Shown one piece after another: positions 757 through 20,655 of a stretch of DNA of 64,000 nt. The notes beneath the pieces were generated by a model that saw only the letters and a program-made list of their open reading frames with translations, searched no databases and was not told where the DNA came from. The stretch covers positions 1,158,191-1,222,190 of the forward strand of contig CM022678.1 in the NCBI GenBank assembly GCA_012295275.1. Reading direction: 5' to 3'. Source of the stretch: Chrysomallon squamiferum. Taxonomy: Eukaryota; Mollusca; Gastropoda; Neomphalida; Peltospiridae. The stretch's first letter is position 1. Each line of letters starts with the position of its first letter. The position numbers and the translations under genes are program-made.

Positions 757-1523
757 GTAGGCAAACCTTACACTATATTCCGGTCCGACATCCGAAACTT
801 GGCTTTCGTTTCAGTTTTCATTTAAAAGCTATTATGAACTAATAATATTATAATATATTTTTTGCATTGTTGTATTTGTTGGTAACTGCTAATGCCCGCA
901 TTGGTAACACAGGAAAACATTAAATATCCAAACAAACGGTATATTTTAAGTAGGTATGCAGGAAGTAGGCCTGACTCTGTGACCGGTTTTGTTCTGCCTT
1001 GCGCATCAGTCGCTGCCTTTTTGTTGTATTAATCGGCCGTAGTTTTAGGAAGATGGTATCTGTAAGGGATCAATCATCTCATAAAACCAGTCGATAGAGG
1101 AATAAATGTCCACGGAATAACTCATTATTTAATAATACAAAATTAATATTAATTGATTTCGTCAAATATTGATGCTGATGAAAATCAGTTTATTCAAGAA
1201 GTTACCAAAAATGTAGACATTGATTGAAACTATTTTCAATAGAGAACGTTTAGTCATTTTTAATAACAAAAATCAATTCCATGTGCATTGACTTGGTATA
1301 ATTATAATTTAATATTGAACTCTAAGGTGAAATGATTAAGGATATTCCTTTCTAAATAATAATAATAATAATAATAATAATGATGATGATGATGATGATG
1401 ATAACAATAATAACAATAATAATAAAATAATAATAGTAATAATAAAGTAATAAATAAATAAGTAAATAATGAAATAAAAACAGTTGACTAAACAAAGGAA
1501 AAACAGATTGTGATAACAGTAAG

Positions 1524-1555
<32 letters not shown>

Positions 1556-1800
1556 AAAATTTAGTTTTTTTAATTTGAAATTTTAATATGGAGTTTTTTC
1601 TCATTAAAATTATTTTTGACATACCAGGTTATATAAGATTCACAATAGCCATGTTCTAAATTTCTCAACATTATTAAACGAAAATTAATTATTTATTAAA
1701 TTACATCCCTAAGATAAATTAAATCAAAAGATAAATACTAAAATACAATTTTGTAAATATTTGTGAGTGAAATGTTTATTATTAATGTTGTCGCTGTCGT
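757..1800. other. Intron/intergenic with microsatellites and a dispersed repeat
   Basis: Contains a (TAA)n/(TGA)n tract at 1357-1440, a (CT)n(TA)n tract at 1526-1555, and a segment around 1093-1200 (CAGTCGATAGAGGAATAAAT ... CAAATATTGATGCTGAT) repeated at 36770, 40630, 48720, 50265 and 51300. No coding potential seen. Confidence 0.55.
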
Positions 1801-1829
1801 TAATTTTTGAAGTGGACAAGTTTGAACTT

Positions 1830-1874
1830 GTTAATCACGATTTCCGGTGATTGAACAGAACCACGTGATTTAAA
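1830..1874 (+). promoter_or_regulatory. Promoter-like segment: ETS-type site and E-box before ATG exon
   Basis: TTTCCGGT (reverse ACCGGAAA, ETS core) is followed about 20 bp later by CCACGTGATTTAAAATG. The same arrangement recurs at 43485-43532 and 57790-57863 in front of other ATGs. Either this is a second promoter, or the AG of GAACAG is an acceptor for splicing from the 668-756 exon. Confidence 0.4.
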
Positions 1875-1905
1875 ATGGAGAAATTATTGCATCCGAAAAA
1901 GAAAG
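1875..1905 (+). CDS. Putative first coding exon of the nSTAND-ankyrin gene
   Basis: ATG opens MEKLLHPKKK and ends with one extra base (G) before a GTAAAG donor, so the exon leaves in phase 1. That is exactly the phase accepted by every downstream microexon and by the large nSTAND exon at 11090. The peptide is short and basic. The paralogous segments at 43530 and 57862 keep an ATG at the same place but run into stops after a few codons, so only this copy looks usable. Linkage to the 3' exons is inferred from phase and order only. Confidence 0.42.
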
Positions 1906-3124
1906 GTAAAGAAATTTGTAATGCACTTTATGTATTTTATATATATATATATATATTTTATATATTTTAATCCCGATAAACATTGAAATTACTTTGATTC
2001 TTTATAATAATTTAATTTTTACTGAATGAAACTACTATTAAGTACTATTGATGATCATAAATTATTGTGAACACTGCAGAATAATTTTTAAAAGCATGAA
2101 ACTTTTTTAACCTCTTAAACAATGTTGTTGTTATTATTATTATTATTATTACTGTATAATATCACTTTTTTCAGTAAGTCCAATCCCCTAAACAGTTAAT
2201 CGTTGAATACTTACACTGTAATATATATATTTTTTTATACAGATATAAGAGGAAATGTGTCTGTAGATTAATATGAAATCATGAAGTGATCAAGATTTGG
2301 AATCAAGCATGTAGCAGATGACTGAAAGCTGAAAGGTACGAATTCGCAATGTGTGTTTATACAAGCAGACACAGTGAAGGAAAAATGATCATGTACAAGA
2401 TGTGACAGCATCATCCTGATTTGAGGTATTGTTCACTATTTTATAATTATGTTTTATGTCCAGAAATGAAAAGTTTACCAGCTTCATATGTTGTATTAAA
2501 TAAGTAACTAAAAACAGTTACATATGAGCAGTTAGAGTTAAAAGTGTGGTCCACTGAAGAACACGATGTTAAGTTCTGTAGGAGTTTAAACTGAACACAA
2601 AAAAGTGACACCTGCTTTAAATTCATTGTAATACTTGTCTGGAAAATGCTGAGTGATTAATAACACAAGTGATACAGCGACATTACAGGAAACTGAGTTG
2701 TGAAAGAACCCACAGGCAACAACGAAATGTAAAAGTTGTGTCAAACTATTGTTATCAAAGTATTTTTATCACCAGTCCCATCTAACATTGAAAATATAAT
2801 CTCAAAGGTATTCAACTGCAGAGTTCATAAAATAGTTTAAGAAACCTGATTCAGAGAGAAAATGTTACTTTGAGTCTCTAGATTACATCTGTAGTTAAAG
2901 GGTTCAGTGACAAGTAAACATTCAACTGCCTCCAGCATCTGACTCGTCTCTCCAGTTAAATGTTGGATTTGTAAAATAATCAGTTGCTGTCATTTCCAGT
3001 CCTAAGTTGATTCCACTTCCTTTGTTTATATAAAATGTTTTGATGATACCCAAATGTGCTCCAATAAATAAAAAAATAGACTCCTGACTGGCCAGAGCAG
3101 AATTGTTAAAGCCTTGTTTTACAG
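1906..3124. other. Intron; segment 2818-3060 duplicated at 61.0 kb
   Basis: AT-rich with (TA)n at 1940-1957 and (ATT)n near 2133-2150. The stretch from CAGAGTTCATAAAATAGTTT (about 2818) to about 3060 has a close copy at 61040-61270, including ATTACATCTGTAGTTAAAGG. No open frame of note. Confidence 0.55.
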
Positions 3125-3157
3125 GTGGACTGTTAGTTGATGAAATTACTAATGACA
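3125..3157 (+). CDS. Putative short coding exon, phase 1/1
   Basis: TTGTTTTACAG acceptor, 33 nt, then GTGAGT donor. With one base carried in, it reads GLLVDEITND and carries one base out, so it is a symmetric phase-1 exon compatible with both its neighbours. The splice signals are good, but the exon is short and has no recognised domain. Confidence 0.4.
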
Positions 3158-4374
3158 GTGAGTGTAGTCAAGCTGATACCAAATACATTTGCTGGACATC
3201 ACTTCTGTATCATTCCTTTTGTCTGCCATCTTTGTGCGTCTGACGTTCTCCTTCTTGTCATTTTTACTGTGAATGGCTCAGCTGTTGAATACAGTGGAGG
3301 TAAATATTCATATCTCATGCACGAACATTCTGCAGTTTGGAAAAATTATGCACACAAATTCGTAAGGCTTCACTTATAGTTTCCGTAAAACTTAATTTAG
3401 TACTGATATTGAGAAAACTGAGCATATAACTTAGTAAAATTATTCTGATATTATCTATACAATTTTATTGTTTATATTACAATTTAGTGTGAATATTGAG
3501 AAAACTAAGAATATGTTTTACTGAAACTATTCTGATATTATCTTCTCATTTTCATTGTTTATTCAACTTAATTTAGTATTATTAATGAAAAATGTTTCAA
3601 TATAAGTTACTGAAACTATTTTTATATTGTTTATTTACTTAAATGAGTAAAAGTATTATTATGATATGGGAATTTACATTGTTTATAGAGCATAGTTTGA
3701 TATTAGGATTAATAAAACTAAGAACATAACCAAGTAAAACTATTTTTATAATTATTAGATTTACATAATTTAATAGTGCAGTTCAGAAAACATACTATAA
3801 AGGCTTTGTGATAATGATTATATTTTGCAAGTCGACCATCAAGACTTATACGAGAGGAGATTTTTCCTAACAGAGGTGTTTTTCTGTCAGAGAGTATGAC
3901 AAAATTGTTTATATCTTTATCAGTGCAGTATACCTCAGTTTAGTGTTTACTTTTTGATAAGAAATTCTAAATGGACAAAATTATTATTTGTGTGTAAAAA
4001 TGTAGCTTTTCAATTTATTGTTTACTTTTTATTATCATTTGTAAATTGACTGATACTGATAATAAATTAACAATTCAAACGGCTTTATATACAGTCTGAC
4101 TGACGAAAACATCAAAAAGGAAAATAAAAAGATAAACGATGAGAAAAATATAAACATTTACACACTAATTACTCCCGACTATTATAATTATTGTGTTGAC
4201 ATTATTTACTGTAATACTGAGGTCATATGTCACATCTAGGCATAATTAGTTAACAATATTGAGCACACTGTATACAGCAATACTATTTAGACAAATTGTA
4301 TTCCACTGTATTCTGCCAAATCTCTACATACAGATAAAAACATTTTTTTTTTTTGTGTGTTTCAGACACTACTA
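3158..4374. other. Intron, AT-rich
   Basis: Long AT-rich stretch with weak internal repetition (ACTGAAACTATTCTGATATT-like strings at 3430-3640). No coding signal beyond the short exon before it. Confidence 0.5.
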
Positions 4375-4413
4375 CTATGTTTAATAATTATGTCTAATTC
4401 TCAGGATTTTGCA

Positions 4414-4415
4414 GG
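4414..4415 (+). promoter_or_regulatory. Zero-length exon / recursive splice site, unit 1
   Basis: TTTTGCAG is immediately followed by GTAAAC, an acceptor abutting a donor, as in recursive splice sites. The same junction recurs at 4838/4839 (TTTTGTAG then GTAAAAA), 5306/5307 and 5626/5627 (both TTTTGCAG then GTAAAA). Function is inference; it could also be a dead exon collapsed to zero length. Confidence 0.35.
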
Positions 4416-4491
4416 TAAACACATTTTTGGAAATTATGTATTGAAATTATGATTTATAAAAAAAAATTCATTGAAGGACAACAGCTTGCAG

Positions 4492-4556
4492 ACATATCTC
4501 ATTCTGGTTCTACTCAATTAGGAAATAACTATGTATCTGATAAGTTTAATAGATAA
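4492..4556 (+). pseudogene. Microexon copy 1, donor destroyed
   Basis: Acceptor GCTTGCAG, then in phase HISHSGSTQLGNNYVS. The expected GTAAGT donor after position 4539 reads ATAAGT, so normal splicing out is lost. If used at all it would be a terminal exon, reading six more codons to TAA at 4554-4556. The peptide keeps the motif core Q-L-G-N-N-Y. Confidence 0.55.
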
Positions 4557-4910
4557 CAGAATACACAGTAGTCATTAGTAGTACTTTTCTGTTAGACATT
4601 GTGACCCGAACAACATAGAAACATGCACAATATACAATGTATATTTATCTGTACCTACATTTAGCACATACACAAAACACGCACATATACACACATATAC
4701 ATGCAGACACACAAACACAAATATGTTCAGACAGTCACAGTGTATGTGTGTTAAACTGAATGTTGTTATATCTCTACACATAGATTATAAATCTGCTACT
4801 ATATTTAATAATTATATATAATTCTCAGAATTTTGTAGGTAAAAACATTTTTAGAAATTATGCATTGAAACTGTGAATTATAAAAATGTATTTACTCTGT
4901 TTCACAGCAG

Positions 4911-4973
4911 GACATCAGACAACACACATATCTCATTCTGGTTCTACTGAAATAAGCCATAACACTATAAACA
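4911..4973 (+). CDS. Amyloid-motif-like microexon, copy 2
   Basis: Acceptor TTCACAGCAG, 63 nt, donor GTAAGT, phase 1/1. It reads HQTTHISHSGSTEISHNTIN. It shares I-S-H-S-G-S-T with copies 1, 4 and 5, but the G-N-N-Y turn is replaced by S-H-N-T-I-N. It can be spliced to any other copy or directly to the nSTAND exon without changing frame. Confidence 0.55.
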
Positions 4974-5378
4974 GTAAGTTAAAAACTGAAGTTTTCTCTT
5001 CGCTACATTTTAACAGATAACACAATACAGAGTAGTCATTAGTACTTTTGTCAGACATTGTAACGTGAACAACACAGAAACATGCACATAAATTCATAGA
5101 CAAAATGCATACATACCTGTACTTACATTTAGCACACACACAAAATATCTACATGCAGACATGGAACAAACAGACACACACACAAATATATTCAGAAGCA
5201 GACACACACACAAATATATTCAGACACAGTGTATGTATGTTCAACTGCATGTTGTCATATCTCTATATCTATTTAATAATTATATCTAATTCTAAGAATT
5301 TTGCAGGTAAAATCATTTTTAGAAATTATCCATTGAAGGTGTGAATTATGAAAATGTATTTTCTCTGTTTCACTGCAG

Positions 5379-5432
5379 TACAGCAGCAAGGAAATTCTAG
5401 TACTGTTCAAATAGGAAATAACTATGGATGCG
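5379..5432 (+). CDS. Amyloid-motif-like microexon, copy 3 (VQIGNNYG)
   Basis: Acceptor TTTCACTGCAG, 54 nt, donor GTAAGT, phase 1/1. Reads QQQGNSSTVQIGNNYGC. The core V-Q-I-G is the tetrad typical of RHIM motifs, and V-x-I-G-N-x-Y-G is the pattern of the second HET-s repeat, known from fungal NLR/effector amyloid signalling. The other two frames contain stops. This is the best match in the array, and the exon whose loss would most affect the proposed function. Confidence 0.6.
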
Positions 5433-5690
5433 GTAAGTTAAAACTGAAAGTTTTCTCTTCTCTACATGTTTAATACATAACAGAATACACATCACAGTAG
5501 TCATTTTCAGAGACACAGTGTATGTATGTTAAAGTGTATACTGTCATATCTCTACGTTAACACAAAAACATTTTTTATTTTTTTGTATTTCAAACACTGC
5601 TATATCTAATTCTCAACATTTTGCAGGTAAAATATTTTTAGAAATTGTGAATTATAAAAAAGTATTTTCTCTGTTTCACTGAACGACAAG

Positions 5691-5747
5691 AGTCAGCAAA
5701 CGTATCTCATTCTGGTTCTACTCTAATAAGCGGTAACACTATAAACC
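5691..5747 (+). CDS. Amyloid-motif-like microexon, copy 4
   Basis: The usual CACTGCAG acceptor is mutated to CACTGAAC, but GACAAG/AG a few bases on restores an acceptor in the right phase. 57 nt, donor GTAAGT, phase 1/1. Reads SANVSHSGSTLISGNTIN. The acceptor is weaker than in copies 2 and 3, so inclusion may be inefficient. Confidence 0.5.
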
Positions 5748-6070
5748 GTAAGTTAAAAACTAAAAGTTCAATAGATAACAAAATAGATAATAGATGTTTA
5801 ATAGGCAACAAATACATAGTAGTCATTAGTACTTTTCTATCAGACACTGTGATCTGAACAATATAGAAACATGCCCATAAATATATAGACACAATATATA
5901 TATATATATATAAACGTACACACTGTACTTACACTTAGCACATACACAGAACGTGTACATACAAACACACACATGTAGATACAGACATGGATTGCAAAGA
6001 CAGAGACACAGACAGAGACACAGTGTATGTACGTTAATCTGTATGCTGCCATATCTCTGTTTCTCTGCAG

Positions 6071-6141
6071 GACTAATGCCAGGTAACATATCTCATTCTG
6101 GTTCTAATGAAATAAGAGTTATTGATGTCACCAGGTCGTAG
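6071..6141 (+). CDS. Microexon copy 5, possible alternative terminal exon
   Basis: Strong acceptor TCTCTGTTTCTCTGCAG, then in phase LMPGNISHSGSNEIRVIDVT followed by R-S and TAG at 6139-6141. There is no GTAAGT donor; a weak GTCGTA follows CACCAG. If used it would end the protein before the NTPase, giving a short motif-only product. Its end (GTCACCAGGTCG) resembles the start of the nSTAND exon (GTCTACCAGGTCA), so it may instead be a remnant of an older junction. Confidence 0.42.
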
Positions 6142-7278
6142 CAAGAAACACATTTTAAAAAATTCCTTAAAAATCATAAGCCTGCAGCAGTGTACTCGAC
6201 CAACCAACAACTTGTTGAAACATTCAAGAATTTTATATTATAGAATTAAAAAAAAAGTGTTCTTATGCTGATTACAGCAGGTCAGAAATATGAAAACAGA
6301 TGCTAAAAGGCATGGTCAAAGACGGATTCAAAACAACCTGCAGAAGAAATACTTGGTAGAAGTATCAGTGTTACTAACAGATTGATGCACATTATTTCAC
6401 ATGTTTCTCAGTTACACCTTTTTATTACAATCTCATTACGTCCATGTACGTTGAGATGGTAATGTTTGTCTTTATGTATACATACAGACAGACAGACAGA
6501 CAGATATATATTTGTTAACTTGATGGAGGTTTTGTCCTGGTTTGGCACTTGTGATCCTACTGGAAGTGAAGTTCACAAGTACAACCTAATTAACAGACAA
6601 GCTGACATCACCGAGCTCACTCAGTAACTGTTTAGAAGTCATTTTACTGCAGTGCTGACCTAGCAATTACATAATTAACTTTTACCATGAAAAAACTAGT
6701 TATTTTTCATTTAATCTAACAGACACTAAAAGTCTTGACATCCATTAATGTTGCCCAGAATACAAAACCCACTTGTCATATGTAATCTATCTCCACCAGT
6801 AATTAATACATTATCCAAAGATGCTCTGATCTGCTATTCTCTGCTGTTAGGATTTTTTTTTTCAAATTTGTTTCTAGTCAGTGCTTAAAAAATCGTCATT
6901 TTCCTTATCTTATGTGAATATGCATGTTTTAGCATTTTGAATTACAATCTACATACTGATGTAGTAATGTTTTATTTTTGTTAATTTAATTTATTATTTT
7001 TTTATTATTTTGTTTTTAATTTATATTTTTTCTCCAAGGTCATTTATTCATACTCAGGTCATACTATCGTTTAGCAGTGGCTAGTGACTTAAGCAAAAAC
7101 ATGCGCATTTAAACAAAAACACACATACACACACACACACACTATTAATACTGTATGCCCTAAATTCTCAAACAAACATTTTTAGAAATAATGCTTATAG
7201 GCTGTGAATTTAAATAATATTTTTATACGTTTGCTGCAATACAACAATTGGTAAAACATATAATGTAAATATGTGCAG
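6142..7278. other. Intron, AT-rich
   Basis: No gene seen. Contains a short (GACA)n at 6486-6502 and (CA)n at 7120-7141. The last 110 bp belong to the diverged sixth unit of the array. Confidence 0.5.
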
Positions 7279-7332
7279 AGGTAAAAATCAGTAACAGAAA
7301 TATTGTATCAGGAGATGACGCTGTGGAAAACA
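7279..7332 (+). CDS. Amyloid-motif-like microexon, copy 6 (diverged)
   Basis: Acceptor AATATGTGCAG, 54 nt, donor GTAAGTTAAAAACTGAAA identical to the other units, phase 1/1. Reads VKISNRNIVSGDDAVEN. The I-S-N-R-N-I-V-S-G-D pattern fits the first half of the repeated motif, but the G-N-N-Y end is lost. The intact frame and splice sites suggest it is still used. Confidence 0.5.
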
Positions 7333-8450
7333 GTAAGTTAAAAACTGAAACATATTTAATACATAACAGATCTACATGTCACATTAATCATCAGTATTTT
7401 ACCATCAAACACTATGACCAACACATGTCAACACAGACATAATTCATACATACATATGTACATGTCTACCGACTACAAAGGGTGCATAAATTGCGAGAAC
7501 AATCGTTTAATTCACGTGAAGGTGCTCAAAACCGTCCTTGCGTAACTCATTTTCCGTTCGTCCAAACTGTGTGCTATGCTGAAAGATAGTTTGCTCATGG
7601 TTGAAATTAAACTGCCATTCACCACATCAACACCATTGGCCTCTGAGTGACATTCTTTGGTGTTCAGTCTTTCTGCATTGCTACTTGAACAATGTCGTTG
7701 CTGCAGAGGTTACCGTAATAAAACCAAAACCTTGTTAACTAAGAAACTATAATTTTGAAATCAACATTAATATTTATAATACAAGTAATGCAATTTTTTT
7801 TTCTTTGAGTGAATGGAGTAGAAGAAATGAAAAGTTATTTTAATTGTTTTTACCTGTTTGGAAATAGCAGCCACTTCTGTTGGTGCAAGGCTGGAAATCG
7901 AGGCATTTGTCTCATTTCTTCGGTATTTAATTGAACAATGTCAAAAATGACTAATTATTCCCTTCAAATTATCAAAGCAACATTAATTATCTATAACACT
8001 CTCCTGCTTTTAGCTATAACTTTAAATAAATTACACTTTATTATATAAACAAAATAATATAACGATAATAATTTATTCCAGTCATAATCCTTAGTTTATA
8101 TTTATTACTTCTAATTTATAAAATAAAATACATATTCTTTAAAAAAAGAGATTTATGGAAAAGAAAATGATTATGCAAATAATGTTTGGATAATCCATTA
8201 ACGGGTTAAATAAAATTTAGACACACACATACACAGGCACTTAAAAACATACAGACAACTAAACAGACAGACATTAACAGGCATAGCATAAGTTCTGACT
8301 GAAATTTTCTTCTTAAACTCTTAATATAACTCAACATGAATTAAACATGACTATATGCCTGTCATTATTATCACCTGTAAATATTAAATATACTGCAAAT
8401 TATATGTCACAATAAATCGTGAATATATGGGGGATATTAAAGATGTTTTA
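7333..8450. other. Intron/intergenic, probable TE-derived patches
   Basis: 7480-7720 has higher GC and a non-repetitive look (GGTGCATAAATTGCGAGAAC ... TGTCGTTGCTGCAGAGGTTA) typical of an old inserted element, but I cannot name it. The rest is AT-rich with no coding signal. Confidence 0.35.
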
Positions 8451-10420
8451 ACTAGCACATCCCAAGATGTATTGTAGCAGTATCAGATTTTTCACTTTTT
8501 CCAGAACACAGGAAGTAGAACGTAACAGCTACGGGTGGGTTCAGACAATTTATTCGATGTCACACAAAAATGAAGACAAGGAAAAACACCCTACGAGAAC
8601 AATAAAACAATAAATATCACATCATAGAGTACATATAACATCAAGTTATAGAATAATTTATGTATATATATATAACATTTATATCACAATTTAAGCAAAT
8701 GTATATCTATAATACTATTCATCTCATCATAAAATAATGTAAATTGAATTATCTTGCTTTAAATCCTGAGTATTTAATGCCAAACTATAAAAGCATTTGA
8801 TAACATAAAGCAAATACATGTAATAAATACACTTGATTAACACGACAAATACAACTAGTCATATACCACAGTTATACATGACAAACTGATATTTGACAAA
8901 CATAATACATAAAAACTCATACCAGGTAGATGACACCTGGGTGTAAGAAACTGGATTCTCCAGCACACTGAACGAGAACAGGACAATCTACAAATCAAAT
9001 ACAAGACATATAAAAGAAACTACCGACAATTACACAATTAACACATCACATATCGCCAACCACGATGCACCAAAACATGTCCACACACACATAAAAAATA
9101 CACATACAAAATACATATACACAATTGACATTTCATTCAGATTGTATGTTTTCTTTAAGCCAGCTATCTTGAACAAATGTTTATTCAATGTAATTTAATC
9201 CATATCTCCAATATAAATAATAATTACTTTATATATTCATAAAGTAATTAAACAAGTACTTTCTAATGGTGTTAAATAACAATGCATGTATACAAAACAT
9301 ACATATATTAAATAAAACAAAATACAGACTAACCTTTCAGATAATATCCACTTTCAAATAATAAATTCAGTTCCACCTTTAAAAATGAAATCTGGCCTGA
9401 CAGTATGATCTTAGCAGGAGAAATAAACCTGAACACTTGAGCCAAGTTGTTTATTCCCTGATGGGCTTGGGAGAGGAGTTTGGGAACAATAGTTAACACG
9501 CAAGGCAAGTAACGTGTGTTAGTACAGTGTAAGCTGAATGAAACAATCACCACAATGACAAGTTACCAGCCTATTGTTTGGCATAACCTGGCTAGGGATA
9601 AAATAAAACTTTAGTTACACAATAAGCTGACAGGAGGCAAGCTGTAAATAAAACCTTACATTAATGACAAAGCCTGCTAAGAAGCAAATATCTGCAGATA
9701 AAACATTAAATACAAATCCTAACTAAAACAAATACCACATACTTCCACAGTATTTGAATATGCTAGAGTATCAAAATAACGTACTGCTTAGTGGGATGTT
9801 GACGTAACAATCAGTTAATCATAACATCGGTTTTGACCTCAAATTCCCACTATTCTCACCCATTGTTTTAGAGATAATAACCCACAGTTAACTTCGACCA
9901 GTCTGATCTCAGATTGGCAGCTATTTTCCAAAATAATGGTCATACTGTTTCAATTCATAAACATATACATTTTATTATTTAGGAAAGACCACATAGGATG
10001 TCTTATAATATTCCTTCTCTAGAGTGGTGCCGAGACTTGTTTCAACTTCAGCAGACATGCAGACGCTAGTGGGTTCCCCAAAACAACATTTCACAAAGCT
10101 TATATAATTTTTAAGGAAATATGACATCCATTACGTATTAAAGAGGAGACTGGCGTCTTCATCACACTTAACTTATGTAATTCTTAAGCTTTACATAATA
10201 AAGAGGAGAGTCTGGTTGTCTCTATCACACCAACAATAACTCTAAAAAAGAACATTAGTGATAAGAAACACTGGCAGTAGTTTTGAAAGTAGTAGGAGTA
10301 AATATATAATGTAAATAACAAAGATGGTGTCAGGGCATTTCCCCATGGATACCCCCCCCGTGAGAGTTTCCCCCATCTACCTGTTTTAGCTGTCAAATAT
10401 CCTTATAGTCTGAGTCATTA
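8451..10420. mobile_element. Probable decayed retroelement/LTR-like material, unclassified
   Basis: Several unrelated higher-complexity stretches: 8456-8560, 8930-9070, 9400-9600 (on the - strand an AATAAA within a CTCCCAAGCCCATCAGGG context) and 9797-10230. The last begins TGTTGACGTAACAATCAG, has a TATATAA at 10099, and has two copies of an ATAAAGAGGAGA..TCATCACAC-like string (10141 and 10198), as LTR U3-R-U5 regions may show. No reading frame for gag or pol is visible. Classification is weak. Confidence 0.3.
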
Positions 10421-10492
10421 ATAAGATTTTTGAAGCGGCCAAACATCGCTTAAATTTGGAAATAATGAAACTGCATAAATTATTCTTGTTTT

Positions 10493-10513
10493 TTTTTTTT
10501 TTTTTTTTTTATC
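10493..10513 (+). repeat. Poly(T) tract
   Basis: A run of about 20 T. It may be the tail of an insertion on the - strand, or part of a polypyrimidine tract. Confidence 0.6.
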
Positions 10514-10537
10514 AACAAACTTAACTGTTTAAACTTC

Positions 10538-10770
10538 ATGTCAACAAACTCCAATCATTATATTAATATCTGGCTGTTTCTGGATGATCCGGAACCCCTC
10601 CAAAAGACAAAAACACCTCAATACTTTAACACTGCACCAGATACTGTTGTGTCTACACAGACATCACCCAGTAGATTCAGGCTGTCATCACAGACTACGG
10701 CAACAGAGACTGCCAGGATGTGCTCCGTGTTGCTGCACACAATCTCCACATGTAAAATGTTTCAAGTAAA
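10538..10770 (+). other. Possible exon remnant, unknown
   Basis: A locally GC-richer stretch with two overlapping coding-like frames. One reads DDPEPLQKTKTPQYFNTAPD and onwards; the other, from about 10676, reads IQAVITDYGNRDCQDVLRV and ends at TAA after HNLHM. Codon-like composition suggests a decayed exon with a frameshift. No acceptor is convincing, and I recognise no family. A GTAAAA after CTCCACAT could be a donor. Confidence 0.3.
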
Positions 10771-11089
10771 CAATTTGTGTCATATAAAATTATCTTTTTA
10801 TCTCCAGATAATCTGTACAAGAGATCAGTTAGGCTTGGCATGGTAGGCAGGGTGAATTGTCAAAGGGGAAATGATCTAGGGTGAAATGTCAAGGGGGAAA
10901 TGCCCTAGAATTAACAAAGATATAATAATAATAAAGTAAATGTTTACTGTTTCATGAATAAAGTGCAGAGTAATTGTTATAGATCACTTTAATCATTCTG
11001 TTTTATGAACAGTCAAAACTATTTACATGGTAAACTATGTTTTAAACAGTCACTAACAGATACTATTTTTTGTTTATGTTGTCATACAG
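10771..11089. other. Intron before the nSTAND exon
   Basis: Contains two imperfect copies of GGTGAAWTGTCAARGGGGAAATG (10850-10910). The second runs into GGGGGAAATGCCCTAG, whose reverse complement AGGGCATTTCCCC lies at 10332. The last 30 bp are pyrimidine-rich and end CATACAG. Confidence 0.5.
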
Positions 11090-14000
11090 AGTCTACCAGG
11101 TCAAAATTAAACTCAACTGACAGGAATGTCTATGTTAAAACAAGAGCAGAAGAAAGAGGTGCTGCACTTTTGAAGAAGAACGGTGTTGTCATTGTGATAG
11201 GATATCCAGGTTCAGGAAAGACAACTCTTGCTTTGAGCATGATGAGACAGATGGAAAAAGAAGAAAAAAGAGTATCTTACTTGCTGACTCATCACTCTGA
11301 ATTCAGTGACATCTCTCTATCTAGAAATAAGAAATATGTTGTTCTAATTGATGATATATTTGGTAAGACTAATCTTGTTTCAGAATTTATATATTCATGG
11401 AAACTCAAATTTCCAATGATCTGGAATCTTGTTCAGAATGGTTCTTTGAAATGTATTATTACTTTAAGAAAACCATTATTTTCAGAAAATGAAACAAGTT
11501 TGAAGGAGTTTGGTCTCTTTAATGAGAAACATGTTCTTGATCTGCAGAGTCGTGACTATTGTCTGGATAATAACGAAAAGGAAGAAATTCTAAACAAATA
11601 TCTTGAACAAAAGGATGTTCCATTGAATGAAATTGATAAAATGATTGTCATTCACAGTTCATGTACAGAGTTAGGATTTCCTCAGGTGTGTGTGTATTAT
11701 GTTAATTCAAGTCATGCACAAAAAACAGGAGTTAATGTTTTTGAGGATCCTTTAAAATATCTCAAAGAAGAGCTGGAAAATTTGAAAAATGACAAAACTT
11801 ACCTGGTTCTACTGCTGATCTTGTTCCAACAAGGCAGTATGAGCGTTGATTCACTGGACCCTTTTGAAAATGGCTCTGACAGTGTCATAATGAAATTAGT
11901 AAGAAAACTAGAGCAATTCTGTCAAAGTCTAGAAAACACTGATCTTACAGAGATCAGGGAAACAGCTGATGAAATGTGTGGTACCTATTTAATGTGTTAT
12001 GACAATAAATACACATTTATTCACCAGTCAGTATTTGACTGTTTTTTTCTGATATTTTCATCAGATTTTCCAAGGAAAGCAGCAGAGTTTCTAGAAGTGT
12101 GTCCTGTCTCCACGTTGTTAGAATATGTTGTTACGCCTGGAGTGTCTAACAAAAGTCACGTTTCAATGACTGTGACACCTGACTGCTTTGATGTTCTTGC
12201 TCGCAGATTTACTGACTTGCTGGCATCAGACAATTTCACAGAAATTATTTCACATCCATCACTGAAAGATGAAGAGTTTCTAAAATACCTCATAGAAGAA
12301 AAACAGTTTTATGGTAGGTTGTCTGAAATCTTACAGCAAAGACTATCTGGAGAACATCAAAAGCAATATAGTTATATATCATTTGTACATGTAAAGTCAA
12401 CTGAAATTATTAATTATATTTCATATCTTACTGACAATGATTCTAGAAACGCATTTCCTTTCAATCTTGAAGAAAATGTTATTAATTCAAAATCTGTCCC
12501 AAGTGAATGTATCGTGAATAGACAAAAAACATTGTCAAAATATTTCACATCAAAATTGTGTCGGATGGAATTGTTAAAACTGCTTAAAACAATAATATCA
12601 CGATTTTTTGCATCAAAACTGTTTGAAACGGACTTAAAAGATATAAAAAAAGAAATATTGGATATTTCTTGTTTGTTTGGTGATGAAGATGTTGTGGGAA
12701 TGTTGCTAAAATCAGGTGTTACACCAACATTTCATACACTGACTGCAGCTGCTTGTTCAAAAACAGACAGTACTACCATACTCAAAGAATTGTTACAGTA
12801 TAAAAAAGAGATGAAATTGAAGAACTATTCACAGCTGTTACGTCTTTTGGTTTATTCAGGTAACATGAAAATTTCCTGTCTGTTGGCTGACATAATAAAT
12901 AATGAGAAACACAAGAGTGAAATCAAGGAAAAATCTGTTAATCTGTTATTGGTTAGATTCCACAGACAAGTAAGACTTAAATCAAGTTACGAGGCAGATG
13001 GCATATATATGGAGAACTCAAAGACTTCTAAAATTGTTGATGTATGCCGTCTGTTTAAGAAACTGGTTACCATTGATATAATAAACAAAAATAAAGACAT
13101 TGCTATCATTGCTGCTGGTCAGAGTACTTCAAGTGTTATAAAAGAAATAGTAAAACTGAAACCTGATTGTATAAATGATAAGAACAGAGATAAAGTACTT
13201 TTAGCAGCAGCAATGTGGGGATCTACTGATACAGTGAATTTTCTCATTGAGCAGAGACGTAATGATACAGGTGAGAACAACTGGAAGAAAAGTGAAGTAC
13301 TGAAAGCGGCAGTGATGTTTAACAGCGTAGATGTTGTTCAGTGTCTTCTTGATAAAGGAGCTGATCCTAATGTTAAAGTAGATATTAACCAGAAATTAAT
13401 TCAATTGTTTGAAGATGAAATCAGATTAAAACTACATAAACAGAGTTTGAAATTGTTGCCTTCAGATTCACTTCTCCATATTTCAGTTCTGCGTGGTGAT
13501 TTAAATATGATAAGATCACTGATAAAGAGAAAAGCTGATGTTAATGCAGTAAACAGTGAGGGAAGAACTCCACTTCATGAAGCTGTAAAAGCAGTGACAC
13601 ACAGAAAGGAAATAGTTTTGTTGTTACTGCAAAATGGTGCTGATATTAACATAACAGATAAACAAAAAAATACAGCATTGCACATAGCATCTCAAATTGA
13701 CATAAATGTGATAAAAAACATAGTAAAGAAAGGCGTTGAAATAAATGTAACAAACACTGCAGGTGAAACTCCACTTTTTATATCCTTAAACACCAACAGA
13801 CGACAAATAGCTTTATACTTACTAAAAAAAGGAGCTGATCCTAATATGACAGACAATGATAACAATTCTGTTTTACATTTAGCAGTTAAATATGGAAATG
13901 TAGAAATTGTGACCGCACTGACTGAAAAAGGTGCTGATGTAAATATTAAAAACAGAAGAGGTGAAACTCCTCTTTTTAAAGCTGCATTCTCTCGTAAACG

Positions 14001-14799
14001 CGAAGTAATTTTGTATTTACTTGACCATAAAGCTGATCCTAATATAACAGACAATGATAACAATTCTGTTTTACACCTAGCAGCTGAACGTGGAAATATA
14101 GAGATTGTGACAGCACTGACTGAAAAAGGTGCTGATGTAAATATTAAAAACAGCCAAGGTGAAACGCCTCTCTTTGCAGCTCTTCATTTCTGTCTGCGTG
14201 ATCCACCTCTGAATATTGAAAAATATAAAGTATTTTTCTATTTACTGCGAAATGGAGCTGATCCTAATTTAACAGACAATGATAACAATTCTGTTTTACA
14301 CTTAGCAGCTGAATTTGGATATATAGGAATTGTGAAAGCACTGACTGAAAAAGGTTTTGATGTAAATATTAAAAACAATAGAGGTGAAACTCCTCTTTTT
14401 ACATCTCTTATTTACAATGAACTTGAACCATCTCTGAAGAATGAAAACTGTAAAGTAGCTTTGTATTTATTGGAATATGGAGCTGATCCTAATATAACAG
14501 ACAATGATAACAATTCTGTTTTACACCTAGCAGCTAAACAAGGATCTTTTGAAATTGTGACAGCACTGATTGAAAAAGGTGTTGATATAAATATTAAAAA
14601 CACTCGAGGTGAAACTCCTCTTTTTACAGCTGTTAAGTGTGCAGATTGCATACTAGTTTTGTATTTACTACAGCGTGAACCTTCGAAGAAAGTAGATTTC
14701 TATATACAACGATATCAAGCTTTGAAGAAAGTAGTTTCGTACTTACTGGAATATGGAGCTAATCTTAATTTAAGAGAGAATGATAACAATAGCAGCTGA
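11090..14799 (+). CDS. nSTAND NTPase with C-terminal ankyrin repeats (main exon)
   Basis: A single 3.7-kb exon (acceptor TTGTCATACAG, phase 1) encoding about 1235 residues. An upstream in-frame ATG at 11005 lies in intron-like sequence, so I start at the acceptor. Exon residues 37-44 are GYPGSGKT (Walker A) and 84-91 are VLIDDIFG (Walker B); a sensor-like ITLRK follows near 122. This order, preceded by VYVKTRAEERGAALL, fits the 'novel STAND NTPase 3' family of invertebrate innate-immune-type proteins. A middle region with TFIHQSVFDCFF is typical of the same proteins. Divergent ankyrin-like units lie at about 560-790, and clear ankyrin repeats from about 793 to the end (NSEGRTPLHEAV, NSVLHLAAERGNIEIV). 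Presumed role: cytosolic ATP-dependent sensor/oligomeriser with ankyrins binding the trigger. The array ends by a frameshift (see 14800). Confidence 0.85.
13834..14760 (+). repeat. DNA-level tandem duplication of ankyrin pairs
   Basis: The string GCTGATCCTAATWTRACAGA followed by CAATGATAACAATTCTGTT starts at 13834, 14032, 14257 and 14482, with a partial at 14758. Units are therefore 198-276 bp, with most length change in the loop after GETPLF. Near-identity at silent sites means recent duplication or gene conversion. Confidence 0.8.
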
Positions 14800-14965
14800 A
14801 CATTGAAATACAGAAATTGTGACAGCATCGATTAAAAAAAGTCGAGGTGAAACTCCTCTTTATAAAGCAAAGAGTTGTAACAAAAGGGGTATTGTTTTAT
14901 GTTTACTGAGAATGGTGCGAAAGATATTAACAGACAGATACATTTTGTTATAAATGTGCACAGAC
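14800..14965 (+). pseudogene. Frameshifted remnant of further ankyrin repeats
   Basis: Just before the stop, GATAACAATAGCAGCTGAAC lacks 14 bases (TCTGTTTTACACCT) present in the earlier units. This shifts the frame onto TGA at 14797. Beyond it GACAGCATCGATTAAAAAA and TCGAGGTGAAACTCCTCTTT still match the repeat, with another internal deletion, then TTACTGAGAATGGTGC. The ancestral protein therefore extended further. Confidence 0.75.
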
Positions 14966-15299: not shown

Positions 15300-15890
15300 C
15301 AATATGAATTTGTGTAACTATATTAGTTTAGTCTGGTGTGTATCTAGATACTGTAAATTGTTTCTATTCATATACTGCAAGACTCTCCTGTGCACTCTGC
15401 TTTTCATATACAAATATTGTATTTGTAGTTTTTGTTTCTTTTCAAATATTGTATTACCATATTGTATATTCTGTTTTATATATTCAAATATTGTATTAAT
15501 GTATGATGCAGTTTTTGTTTCTATACAAATATTGTATTAGCATATTGTGTAATATATTGTGACCATACAAATATTGTATTATGTATGGTACAGAGTCTAT
15601 TGTATATGTTCAAACATTGTATTAATGTATTGTACAGAGTACTGTATCTATTCAAATATTGTATTAATGCATGATACAGTGTTTGATTCTATGCAAATAT
15701 TACATTAACACATTGTATCGTCTATTCTATCTATTCAATATTTTGTATAATATATGGCATAGTTTATGTTTCTATAAAAATTTTGTATAACCATATTCCT
15801 TAGTATTTTGTATCTATTCAAATATTGTCTTAGTTGTACAGTTTATTTTTGTTTCTATTCAAATATTTTGTTGTCTGTTGTATTTGTACG
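15300..15890 (+). repeat. Minisatellite, unit with CAAATATTGTATTA
   Basis: About ten diverged copies of a 45-65 bp unit of the form TTTCTATWCAAATATTGTATTA...GTATGRTACAG. The apparent small open frame within it is a by-product of the repeat. Confidence 0.7.
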
Positions 15891-16440
15891 TAACAAGAAA
15901 TAATATTGTATGAAAATTTAATAATAATTTTTACTTTTCACTGAAACACTTTCCGGATTTATTGCACAATTCAATTTAAAAAAATGTTAAGATAAGTTAG
16001 GGTTCCAGTAATCATACAACAATACTAATACTGATGTTATGTTTGATCAGGTTATTCAGTCAGTGAAAAGTCAGACAGTTTTTAAATCAGATTTGTTATT
16101 CGTAATGACTTGATTATTACTTGTGTTGCTGTTCATGTGTGAAAATATCTGTTAAACAGGATGTTATAATTAAAGTAGTATTTTAATGTTGTGTGCAAAA
16201 TTTTTAATGTATCTTTTCATTTGATAAAATTGTTCTGTATTGCTAAATGTTTTACTGTGTTTTTACTACATGAATTTGTATATTGTTAAGGTAAAGTTTT
16301 TTTTTGTTACATTATAAAACAGTTCTGTACTATAAATCTTTTTTGCCCTGTTTAAAATAACTAAACTAGTATTATGATGTTTAATTTAAGATTTTTTAAA
16401 TATATATTTGTTTGCTTTCTCGTGATTTTAATAATAAATT
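15891..16440. other. AT-rich intergenic, nothing recognised
   Basis: No splice-bounded frame or family match seen on either strand. Confidence 0.5.
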
Positions 16441-20099: not shown

Positions 20100-20232
20100 T
20101 TGAATTTACCTGTATTATGGTCAGTGCTTGTAGGTAAATCTCTGGCCTGGCCTATGAATTTACCTGTATTATGGTGATGCTTGCAGGTAAATTTGTGATG
20201 TTACACCTGTACAGGTATTGTTTTGTTCACAC
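20100..20232 (+). repeat. Short duplicated segment with TTACCTGTATTATGGT
   Basis: GAATTTACCTGTATTATGGT...GCTTG(T/C)AGGTAAAT occurs at 20102 and 20156. Each copy contains an AG/GTAAAT junction resembling an acceptor abutting a donor. Confidence 0.55.
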
Positions 20233-20399
20233 AGGTACGGGCCACGTGAAGTGTTGAGGAAGGAAGACTTCAGCATGAAGGGACAGCTGACCTGCGAGTT
20301 CAAGTTTGCAACGTTTTCCTGCAGACAACGTCGACAACACCAGCAAGACAGCGAGGAGAAAGACTACTCACTTCAAATCCTGGAAGCTCTTGAACCAGC

Positions 20400-20655
20400 T
20401 GTCTGTCTGGTGAGTATGTATGTGTGTCTCTCTGTCTGTCTGGTGAGTTTGTATGTGTGTCTCTCTGTCTGTCTGGTGAGTTTGTATGTGTGTCTGTCTG
20501 TCTGGTGAGTTTGTGAGTCTCTGGTGAGTGTGTATGTCTCTGTCTGGTGAGTGTGTGTGTGTGTCTGGTGAGTCTGTATGTCTGTCTGTCTGGTGAGTGT
20601 ATGTATGTCTGTCTGTCTGGTGAGTTTTTATGTCTCTGTCTAGTGAGTTTGTGAG
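20400..20655 (+). repeat. Minisatellite carrying repeated 5' splice sites
   Basis: The exon-4/intron junction of the EXOSC6 copy (GTCTGTCTG/GTGAGT) is repeated about eight times as TGTCTGTCTGGTGAGTNTGT units. Each unit contains a consensus-like donor, so downstream cryptic donors compete with the true one. Confidence 0.8.

Follow-up and report, generated by a model that had tools for sequence, protein, structure and literature searches.

A tandem array of six microexon copies was found at 4.4-7.4 kb of the window (the whole 64-kb stretch of DNA that was analysed), upstream of a long exon that encodes a STAND NTPase and ankyrin repeats (Table 1). Two of the copies, c2 and c3, could be joined to this exon in phase. 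The microexons are probably translated, as judged from the codon positions at which the copies differ, and c3 might provide the receptor with a short motif resembling the RHIM of animal signalling proteins, one of the short amyloid motifs by which cell-death signals are relayed in other animals and in fungi.

Table 1. Positions and properties of the predicted exons, microexon copies and domains
Feature	Positions	Strand	Properties
Candidate first exon	1875..1905	+	ATG, then MEKLLHPKKK; phase 1 end AAAG/GTAAAG; plausible
Copy c1 (QQLADISHSGSTQLGNNYVS)	4477..4540	+	Weak acceptor, donor GT lost; probably dead
Copy c2 (HQTTHISHSGSTEISHNTIN)	4911..4973	+	63-base microexon, phase 1-1; both splice sites strong
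Copy c3 (QQQGNSSTVQIGNNYGC)	5379..5432	+	54-base microexon, phase 1-1; both splice sites strong; RHIM-like core VQIG
Copy c4 (QESANVSHSGSTLISGNTIN)	5685..5747	+	Original acceptor AG lost
Copy c5 (LMPGNISHSGSNEIRVIDVT)	6071..6134	+	Acceptor strong; full-copy donor weak, out of phase
Copy c6 (VKISNRNIVSGDDAVEN)	7279..7332	+	Diverged; donor good, acceptor poor
Main coding exon	11090..14799	+	1235 aa + stop; STAND NTPase + ankyrin repeats; acceptor CAG/A at 11089/11090, phase 1
nSTAND3 NTPase domain (PF20720)	11131..11607	+	Residues 14-172; Walker A GYPGSGKTT, Walker B-type VVLIDD
Ankyrin repeat array	13279..14796 (limits approximate)	+	

Profile comparisons support the assignment of the main exon product to nSTAND3-type STAND NTPases with an ankyrin array, the layout of a putative intracellular, immune-type receptor of a mollusc, probably a gastropod. 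PF20720 matched the exon with 89.8 bits against a curated cut-off of 27.2 (E = 1.9e-25), and the Pfam family Ank_2 matched at E = 1.7e-89. The Walker residues G37, P39-T45, D87 and D88 were invariant in five of five aligned sequences (the window and four relatives); when Haliotis was added to the alignment, all except P39 and S41 were still invariant in six of six. For the NTPase, NCBIfam gave weak P-loop matches only, and PADLOC returned six families, comprising ankyrin models, MzaA over the repeats, weak P-loop matches (mad8 and GajB) and PDC-S73, which covered the start of the NTPase (E = 2.9e-9). Splice sites were ranked by a simple score among the 3300 AG and 4121 GT sites of the + strand, and the acceptor of the main exon was fair (rank 217). 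The open frame of the exon begins at 10993, and a Met at about 11005 precedes the P-loop, which lies in that frame.

The nearest relatives were four proteins of Gigantopelta aegis (P0001-P0004) and one of Haliotis cracherodii (P0005), found in searches limited to the roughly 8000 candidates with the most shared words. All five combine the same NTPase family with ankyrin repeats. The Gigantopelta proteins were 36-45% identical to the spliced model over 77-83% of its first 500 residues, and P0005 was 32% identical to about one-third of the main exon protein. A profile search gave 47 proteins, of which these five were kept and 42, mostly fish TANC2 and other ankyrin proteins, were dropped. Similarity to the open frame began at residues 33-51 in five of five relatives (residue 34 corresponds to the codon at 11092), and the 33 open-frame residues upstream had no match with E below 4, which would be the outcome if 10993-11089 were intron. 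The predicted N-termini of the relatives, two of which are only about 20 residues long, lack the microexon motif. With a profile of the copies, P0001 and P0004 scored no higher than their own shuffled sequences, and P0002 and P0005 were not listed; P0003 received 3.7 bits from six residues, a score without shuffle comparison. A motif conserved in the N-termini of the relatives was thus rejected. Beta-prone stretches were seen by eye ahead of the NTPase in P0001 and P0005; the best pairing between the two proteins lay elsewhere and was equalled by 27 of 300 shuffles.

The array itself was largely as the initial annotation had described it. Its tandem copies lie upstream of the STAND exon, copy 3 does read TVQIGNNYGC, and the phase 1 junction leads into an exon with both nSTAND3 and ankyrin matches. 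The 19-base sequence of the shared ISHSGST core occurred four times with at most one mismatch, compared with 0.06 occurrences expected from shuffles at up to three mismatches. The claim that four copies have intact splice sites and frame was not confirmed in that form: c2 and c3 have them, but c4 and c6 need weak acceptors. Judged by splice-site scores, two of the six copies are strong, and four are reached only if weak acceptors are allowed. Copy c4 is usable only through a weak in-phase AG at 5691, 6 bases downstream of the lost acceptor. The acceptor of c5 is excellent (rank 2 of 3300); combined with a good in-phase donor at 6082, it would define an exon of 12 bases that lacks the motif. 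The c6 acceptor ranked 1388 of 3300, and the DNA adjoining c6 is related to the array. When the 64 kb were scanned for open in-phase microexons of 30-90 bases at the thresholds of c2 and c3, the + strand yielded only these two copies and the - strand yielded one; at the laxer threshold of c6, 25 and 16 passed, so that c6 is not exceptional. The donor of the candidate first exon scored 7.5 (rank 60 of 4121). Joined in phase 1 to the main exon, c2 and c3 would add about 40 residues before the NTPase, and since both are symmetrical, any number of them could be included without a change of frame. The possibility that the array is a dispersed mobile repeat was dismissed, as the window held no further copy at E = 1e-5.

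Variation among the copies differed between codon positions. For c1-c4, 22 of 34 columns at first and second positions varied, compared with 4 of 17 at third positions and 38 of 121 in the flanking intron (p = 0.0006 for first and second positions against flank, 0.008 against third positions, and 0.59 for third positions against flank). Third positions thus varied at the rate of the flanking intron, and first and second positions at roughly double that rate. The exons of c2 and c3 were only 59% identical, whereas their flanks were 90% (upstream) and 78% (downstream) identical (p = 0.0002), and the differences between the two exons amounted to 0.5 synonymous versus 19.5 nonsynonymous. The counts cover 17 codons rather than 20, because three codons absent in c3 were dropped wherever c3 was in the set. 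Copy c6 was left out as too diverged, and c5 because a deletion and mis-alignment account for the low identity of its flanks; aligned locally, the DNA upstream of c5 was about 70-89% identical to the array. The signal depends largely on c3 and on a small number of sites, and three of the six pairs among c1-c4, which are not independent, did not vary more at first and second positions than in the flanks. These counts point to present or past translation of the copies in the stated frame, and the pattern looks like diversifying selection, with amino acids changed faster than the neutral rate. Gene conversion with another array elsewhere in the genome might have produced the same pattern without selection and would be compatible with the other readings of the array. 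We regard it as quite improbable: c1 does appear mosaic by eye (its 5' half resembles c2, c4 and c5, and its 3' half c3), but exchange alone does not predict third positions at the flank rate with first and second positions above it, and the window contains no other copy of the array.

A somewhat unlikely explanation is that the array is a relic of old exon duplicates that are now skipped, with the protein starting elsewhere, for example from an unrecognised exon or from an unspliced ATG near 11005. The damaged or weak splice sites of c1, c4, c5 and c6 would fit this explanation, as would a candidate first exon that has no independent support, the Met ahead of the P-loop and the starts of P0002 and P0003, which are predicted just before the NTPase. 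However, c2 and c3 retain strong splice sites and open frames, the codon-position pattern is unlike that of a neutral relic, and the similarity of all five relatives begins only at residues 33-51 of the open frame.

The case for translated microexons that also act through a RHIM-like mechanism is tentative. When c3 was compared by itself with the 24736 Pfam families, only HET-S (E = 0.0079), RHIM (E = 0.008) and HET-s_218-289 (E = 0.011) matched, all below their curated cut-offs: RHIM (PF12721) reached 16.1 bits of the required 20, and HRAM (PF11558) 16.2 of 32.2. None of ten shuffled versions of c3 gave any match, so that c3 exceeds its shuffles, though modestly, and none of six control peptides did. 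The RHIM likeness was not among the Pfam matches of the 98-residue spliced N-terminus, and in the 3196-residue frame translation containing c3 nothing reached E = 0.5. The VQIG of c3 agrees with the published core tetrad (V/I)-Q-(V/I/L/C)-G (as given in part of PMC9444067), and the tetrad is present in no other copy. HRAMs are defined, in the relevant text of PMC4518210, as two 21-residue repeats with glycine at position 19 of each; by hand, c3 has this glycine and c2 has serine, and c3 joined to c2 fits three of the five hydrophobic positions 5, 8, 10, 16 and 18 (namely 5, 16 and 18). Each by itself, copies 1, 2, 4, 5 and 6 had no Pfam match. The initial annotation had proposed a repeated amyloid motif; copy 3 alone resembles RHIM or HET-s, with matches below cut-off, and the repetition is not supported. 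An amyloid role, to which c3 alone points, is a plausible but weakly supported guess.

The microexons might also be spliced and translated as a disordered, fast-evolving linker or a short binding motif, neither of them amyloid, with VQIG a coincidence in repeats rich in Ser, Asn, Gly and Gln. This is a doubtful reading, about as doubtful as that of a skipped relic. The coding signature of the copies and the confinement of the RHIM likeness to c3 agree with it, and shuffling of residues yielded the tetrad in 1.6% of trials for the c2 and c3 peptide and in 3.7% for all six copies. On the other hand, the three families that c3 matched are RHIM itself and two HET-S/HET-s models, and c3 precedes a STAND NTPase on its N-terminal side, the position that receptors use for their amyloid signalling motifs according to part of PMC12261475.

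Further searches covered the N-terminus and possible partners. An 825-residue N-terminal query, for which far longer proteins were not candidates, matched 0 of 2064 candidates at E values up to 10, and NCBIfam had no match to the N-terminus. Comparison with solved structures gave no meaningful match (one chance-level match in each of two comparisons and none in a third). A hidden classical domain (HEPN, Death, CARD or TIR) was considered and set aside: none of the three forward reading frames across 1501-11090 had a Pfam match at E ≤ 0.5, and the search therefore yielded no classical effector domain that could form the N-terminus. A six-frame profile scan for a partner gene with the motif recovered five array copies and then nothing better than E = 0.7; the scan was limited to the 64-kb window, which extends just 1.9 kb upstream of the first exon, and a partner may be located elsewhere. 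Among the titles listed for open-licence PubMed Central papers, none described an N-terminal amyloid motif on a STAND receptor from an animal.

If the N-terminal extension were a short RHIM-type signalling motif, as c3 hints, a ligand bound to the ankyrin array would cause the NTPase to oligomerise, which would cluster the N-terminal motifs. The clustered c3 motif could then seed a small cross-beta assembly, and this would recruit a partner with a RHIM, such as a mollusc homologue of RIPK1; RIPK1 homologues with the RHIM tetrad are described for the zebra mussel in part of PMC12119088. In its full form, the proposal is of an animal STAND receptor that signals in the manner of the fungal NWD2-type receptors through an N-terminal RHIM-like amyloid motif, the number and kind of copies being set by symmetrical cassette microexons under diversifying selection. 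We consider this full form distinctly unlikely.

The layout resembles that of fungal NLRs, in which a short motif precedes a STAND NTPase and C-terminal repeats, as in NWD2 with its HET-s type R0 (described in part of PMC7889193) and in PNT1 with a PP motif ahead of the NTPase (described in part of PMC12881547). A weak score of c3 with the HET-S/HET-s profiles is a further likeness. The snail gene differs from these in that the curated cut-offs are not reached, it belongs to an animal, its motif is on microexons, and no motif-bearing effector was found in the window. With animal RHIM proteins (RIPK1, RIPK3, ZBP1, TRIF, mollusc RIPK1 and the bivalve CARD-RHIM), the core tetrad is shared, and RHIM proteins are reported in molluscs in parts of PMC12119088 and PMC12452177. 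Unlike them, the snail gene falls below the Pfam RHIM cut-off and has the tetrad in one copy only, and the RHIM proteins named in those parts of the two papers are not described there as STAND NTPases. Bacterial NLR-associated BASS, including the RHIM-like BASS3, likewise place a short N-terminal motif on NLR-type STAND proteins (parts of PMC7889193 and PMC12261475); this likeness is one of description rather than of profile, and the BASS systems differ in being bacterial and in having an adjoining effector.

If the proposal is true, a RHIM-like motif at the fungal and bacterial NLR position in an animal STAND receptor would directly link these arrangements. The microexon array would then be a natural series of motif variants, and splicing would tune both the ease with which assembly starts and the choice of partner. 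Should the amyloid part fail, the N-terminus of this STAND receptor may still prove to be fast-evolving and built from duplicated exons, so that splicing there could alter signalling specificity.

The STAND-ankyrin gene itself is secure, and the frame of its main exon stays open up to a stop at 14797-14799. Among the candidates scored, the best relatives were four Gigantopelta aegis proteins (P0001 to P0004), with 36 to 45% identity across 77 to 83% of the spliced model's first 500 residues, and a profile search added one Haliotis cracherodii protein (P0005); both searches scored only the ~8,000 candidates with most words in common. These relatives point to a gastropod mollusc as the probable source. 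In all five relatives the similarity begins no earlier than about codon 11092, and none of them matched the open stretch just before it, 10993-11089 (best E value, 4). Both findings agree with a splice acceptor at 11089/11090. The start of the NTPase (within 11092-14796, + strand) also matched the PADLOC candidate defence family PDC-S73 (E = 2.9e-9). Right after the stop (14797-14900, + strand) lies a decayed ankyrin repeat in another frame, SRGETPLYKAKS, suggesting that the ankyrin array was formerly longer. Beyond the gene, at 15358-15915 (+ strand), is a tandem repeat whose period is about 83 bases. The downstream RNase_PH exon presumably resembles the exosome subunit EXOSC6/MTR3; this likeness and the domain match suggest a probable housekeeping gene further along the + strand.

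Features of the STAND-ankyrin locus and its surroundings
Feature	Position	Strand	Evidence
Microexon copies c1 to c6	4477-4540, 4911-4973, 5379-5432, 5685-5747, 6071-6134, 7279-7332	+	
Main exon	11090-14799	+	1235 residues encoded
nSTAND3 NTPase (PF20720)	residues 14-172 of main-exon protein	+	Pfam E 1.9e-25
Ankyrin repeats	C-terminal part of main-exon protein	+	Ank_2 E 1.7e-89
RNase_PH exon	20191-20505	+	PF01138, E 7.7e-07

Upstream, five tandem copies of one unit occupy 4.4-6.2 kb, with a diverged sixth at 7.3 kb; no further copy was found across the window. Four occurrences of the 19-base core ATATCTCATTCTGGTTCTA were counted at ≤1 mismatch, against 0.06 expected at ≤3 mismatches. Splice sites were ranked on the + strand by a simple score whose weights were not fitted to this species. 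The initial annotation counted four copies with intact splice sites and frame; two are strong on both sides, c2 (acceptor 28/3300, donor 93/4121) and c3 (15/3300 and 15/4121), and four are reached only if weak sites are counted. The donor of c1 is lost, c4 is usable only via a weak in-phase acceptor at 5691, and the c6 acceptor is poor (rank 1388 of 3300; main exon, 217). The c5 acceptor is among the best in the window, and its sole good in-phase donor removes the motif. Lying 12 bases on, this donor could define a 12-base microexon without the motif (6071-6082, + strand). At the c2/c3 thresholds, open in-phase microexons of 30 to 90 bases number two on the + strand (c2 and c3) and one on the − strand, and at the c6 threshold 25 and 16, respectively. 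Because c2 (63 bases) and c3 (54 bases) are both symmetrical phase-1 exons, any combination of them would keep the frame. A single open frame results from splicing c2, c3, c6, and the main exon to 1875-1905, a candidate first exon proposed only on its ATG and a donor of fair score (rank 60).

Codon positions were compared in c1 to c4, whose flanks align. Variable columns numbered 14/17 at first, 8/17 at second, and 4/17 at third positions, compared to 38/121 in flanking intron; first and second positions were thus more variable than flanks (P = 0.0006) and third positions (P = 0.008), while third positions did not differ from flanks (P = 0.59). Copies c2 and c3 differ by 0.5 synonymous and 19.5 nonsynonymous changes, and c2 and c4 by 0 and 10. 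In neutral simulations, so few synonymous differences arose in 0.08% (c2-c3), 0.7% (c3-c4), and 3.8% (c2-c4) of runs; the three c1 pairs were not significant (9 to 25%). Pairwise, first and second positions exceeded flanks for c2-c3 (P = 6e-6), c3-c4 (P = 3e-4), and c1-c2 (P = 0.02) and showed no excess for c2-c4 (P = 0.66), c1-c4 (P = 0.1), and c1-c3 (P = 0.51). These mixed results indicate that the selection signal leans on c3, and the pairs have a shared history. The pattern is compatible with faster-than-neutral amino acid change in the proposed frame and is not what a long-dead relic would show. We consider it rather likely that c2 and c3 are coding exons.

A 21-residue c3 peptide, including residues from spliced neighbours, matched HET-S (E = 0.0079), RHIM (E = 0.008), and HET-s_218-289 (E = 0.011) in Pfam, each under the curated cutoff. 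The 98-residue spliced N-terminus matched HET-S (E = 0.076) and HET-s (E = 0.084), with RHIM absent from the matches, and an artificial c2-c5 chain matched HET-s (E = 0.039); whole-frame translations gave no match at E values up to 0.5. The amyloid likeness initially proposed was seen in c3, which scored modestly better than its shuffles (0/10 with a Pfam match; control peptides, 0/6). The claim of a repeated amyloid motif was not supported: singly, c1, c2, c4, c5, and c6 had no Pfam match. The VQIG of c3 fits the published RHIM core tetrad (PMC9444067). Across the 127,996 residues of the six-frame translated window, [IV]Q[IVL]G was found 4 times, and residue shuffling produced a tetrad in 3275/200000 trials for c2 plus c3 and 3693/100000 for all six copies. 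Read by hand against the HET-s repeat as defined in PMC4518210, c3 has the glycine and 3/5 hydrophobic positions, and c2 is without the glycine. Judged from sequence, c3 appears RHIM-like, short of a demonstrated RHIM, and the copies would not form a HET-s repeat pair.

The motif was found in none of the predicted N-termini of the five relatives, of which P0002 and P0003 have only ~20 residues there. Microexons are often missed by gene models, and this absence is therefore weak evidence. An N-terminus search returned 0/2064 candidates at E values up to 10, within length limits that fall short of P0001 and P0003. Residues ~90 to 255 of P0001 carry many tandem ~10-residue repeats of the GNPVTANQGI type, a different repeated extension ahead of the same NTPase. 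The 9.6 kb upstream yielded no Pfam domain in its forward frames, and no partner carrying the motif was found across the window. Amyloid motifs of receptors are described at the NLR N-terminus (PMC12261475), the position that the microexon extension would likewise occupy. A full fungal-style amyloid receptor with copy number tuned by splicing seems unlikely; RHIM-like signalling is a less doubtful, still tentative reading. RHIM-bearing RIPK1 homologues are known from zebra mussel and other spiralians (PMC12119088), and bivalves have CARD-RHIM proteins (PMC12452177); possible partners thus exist in molluscs.
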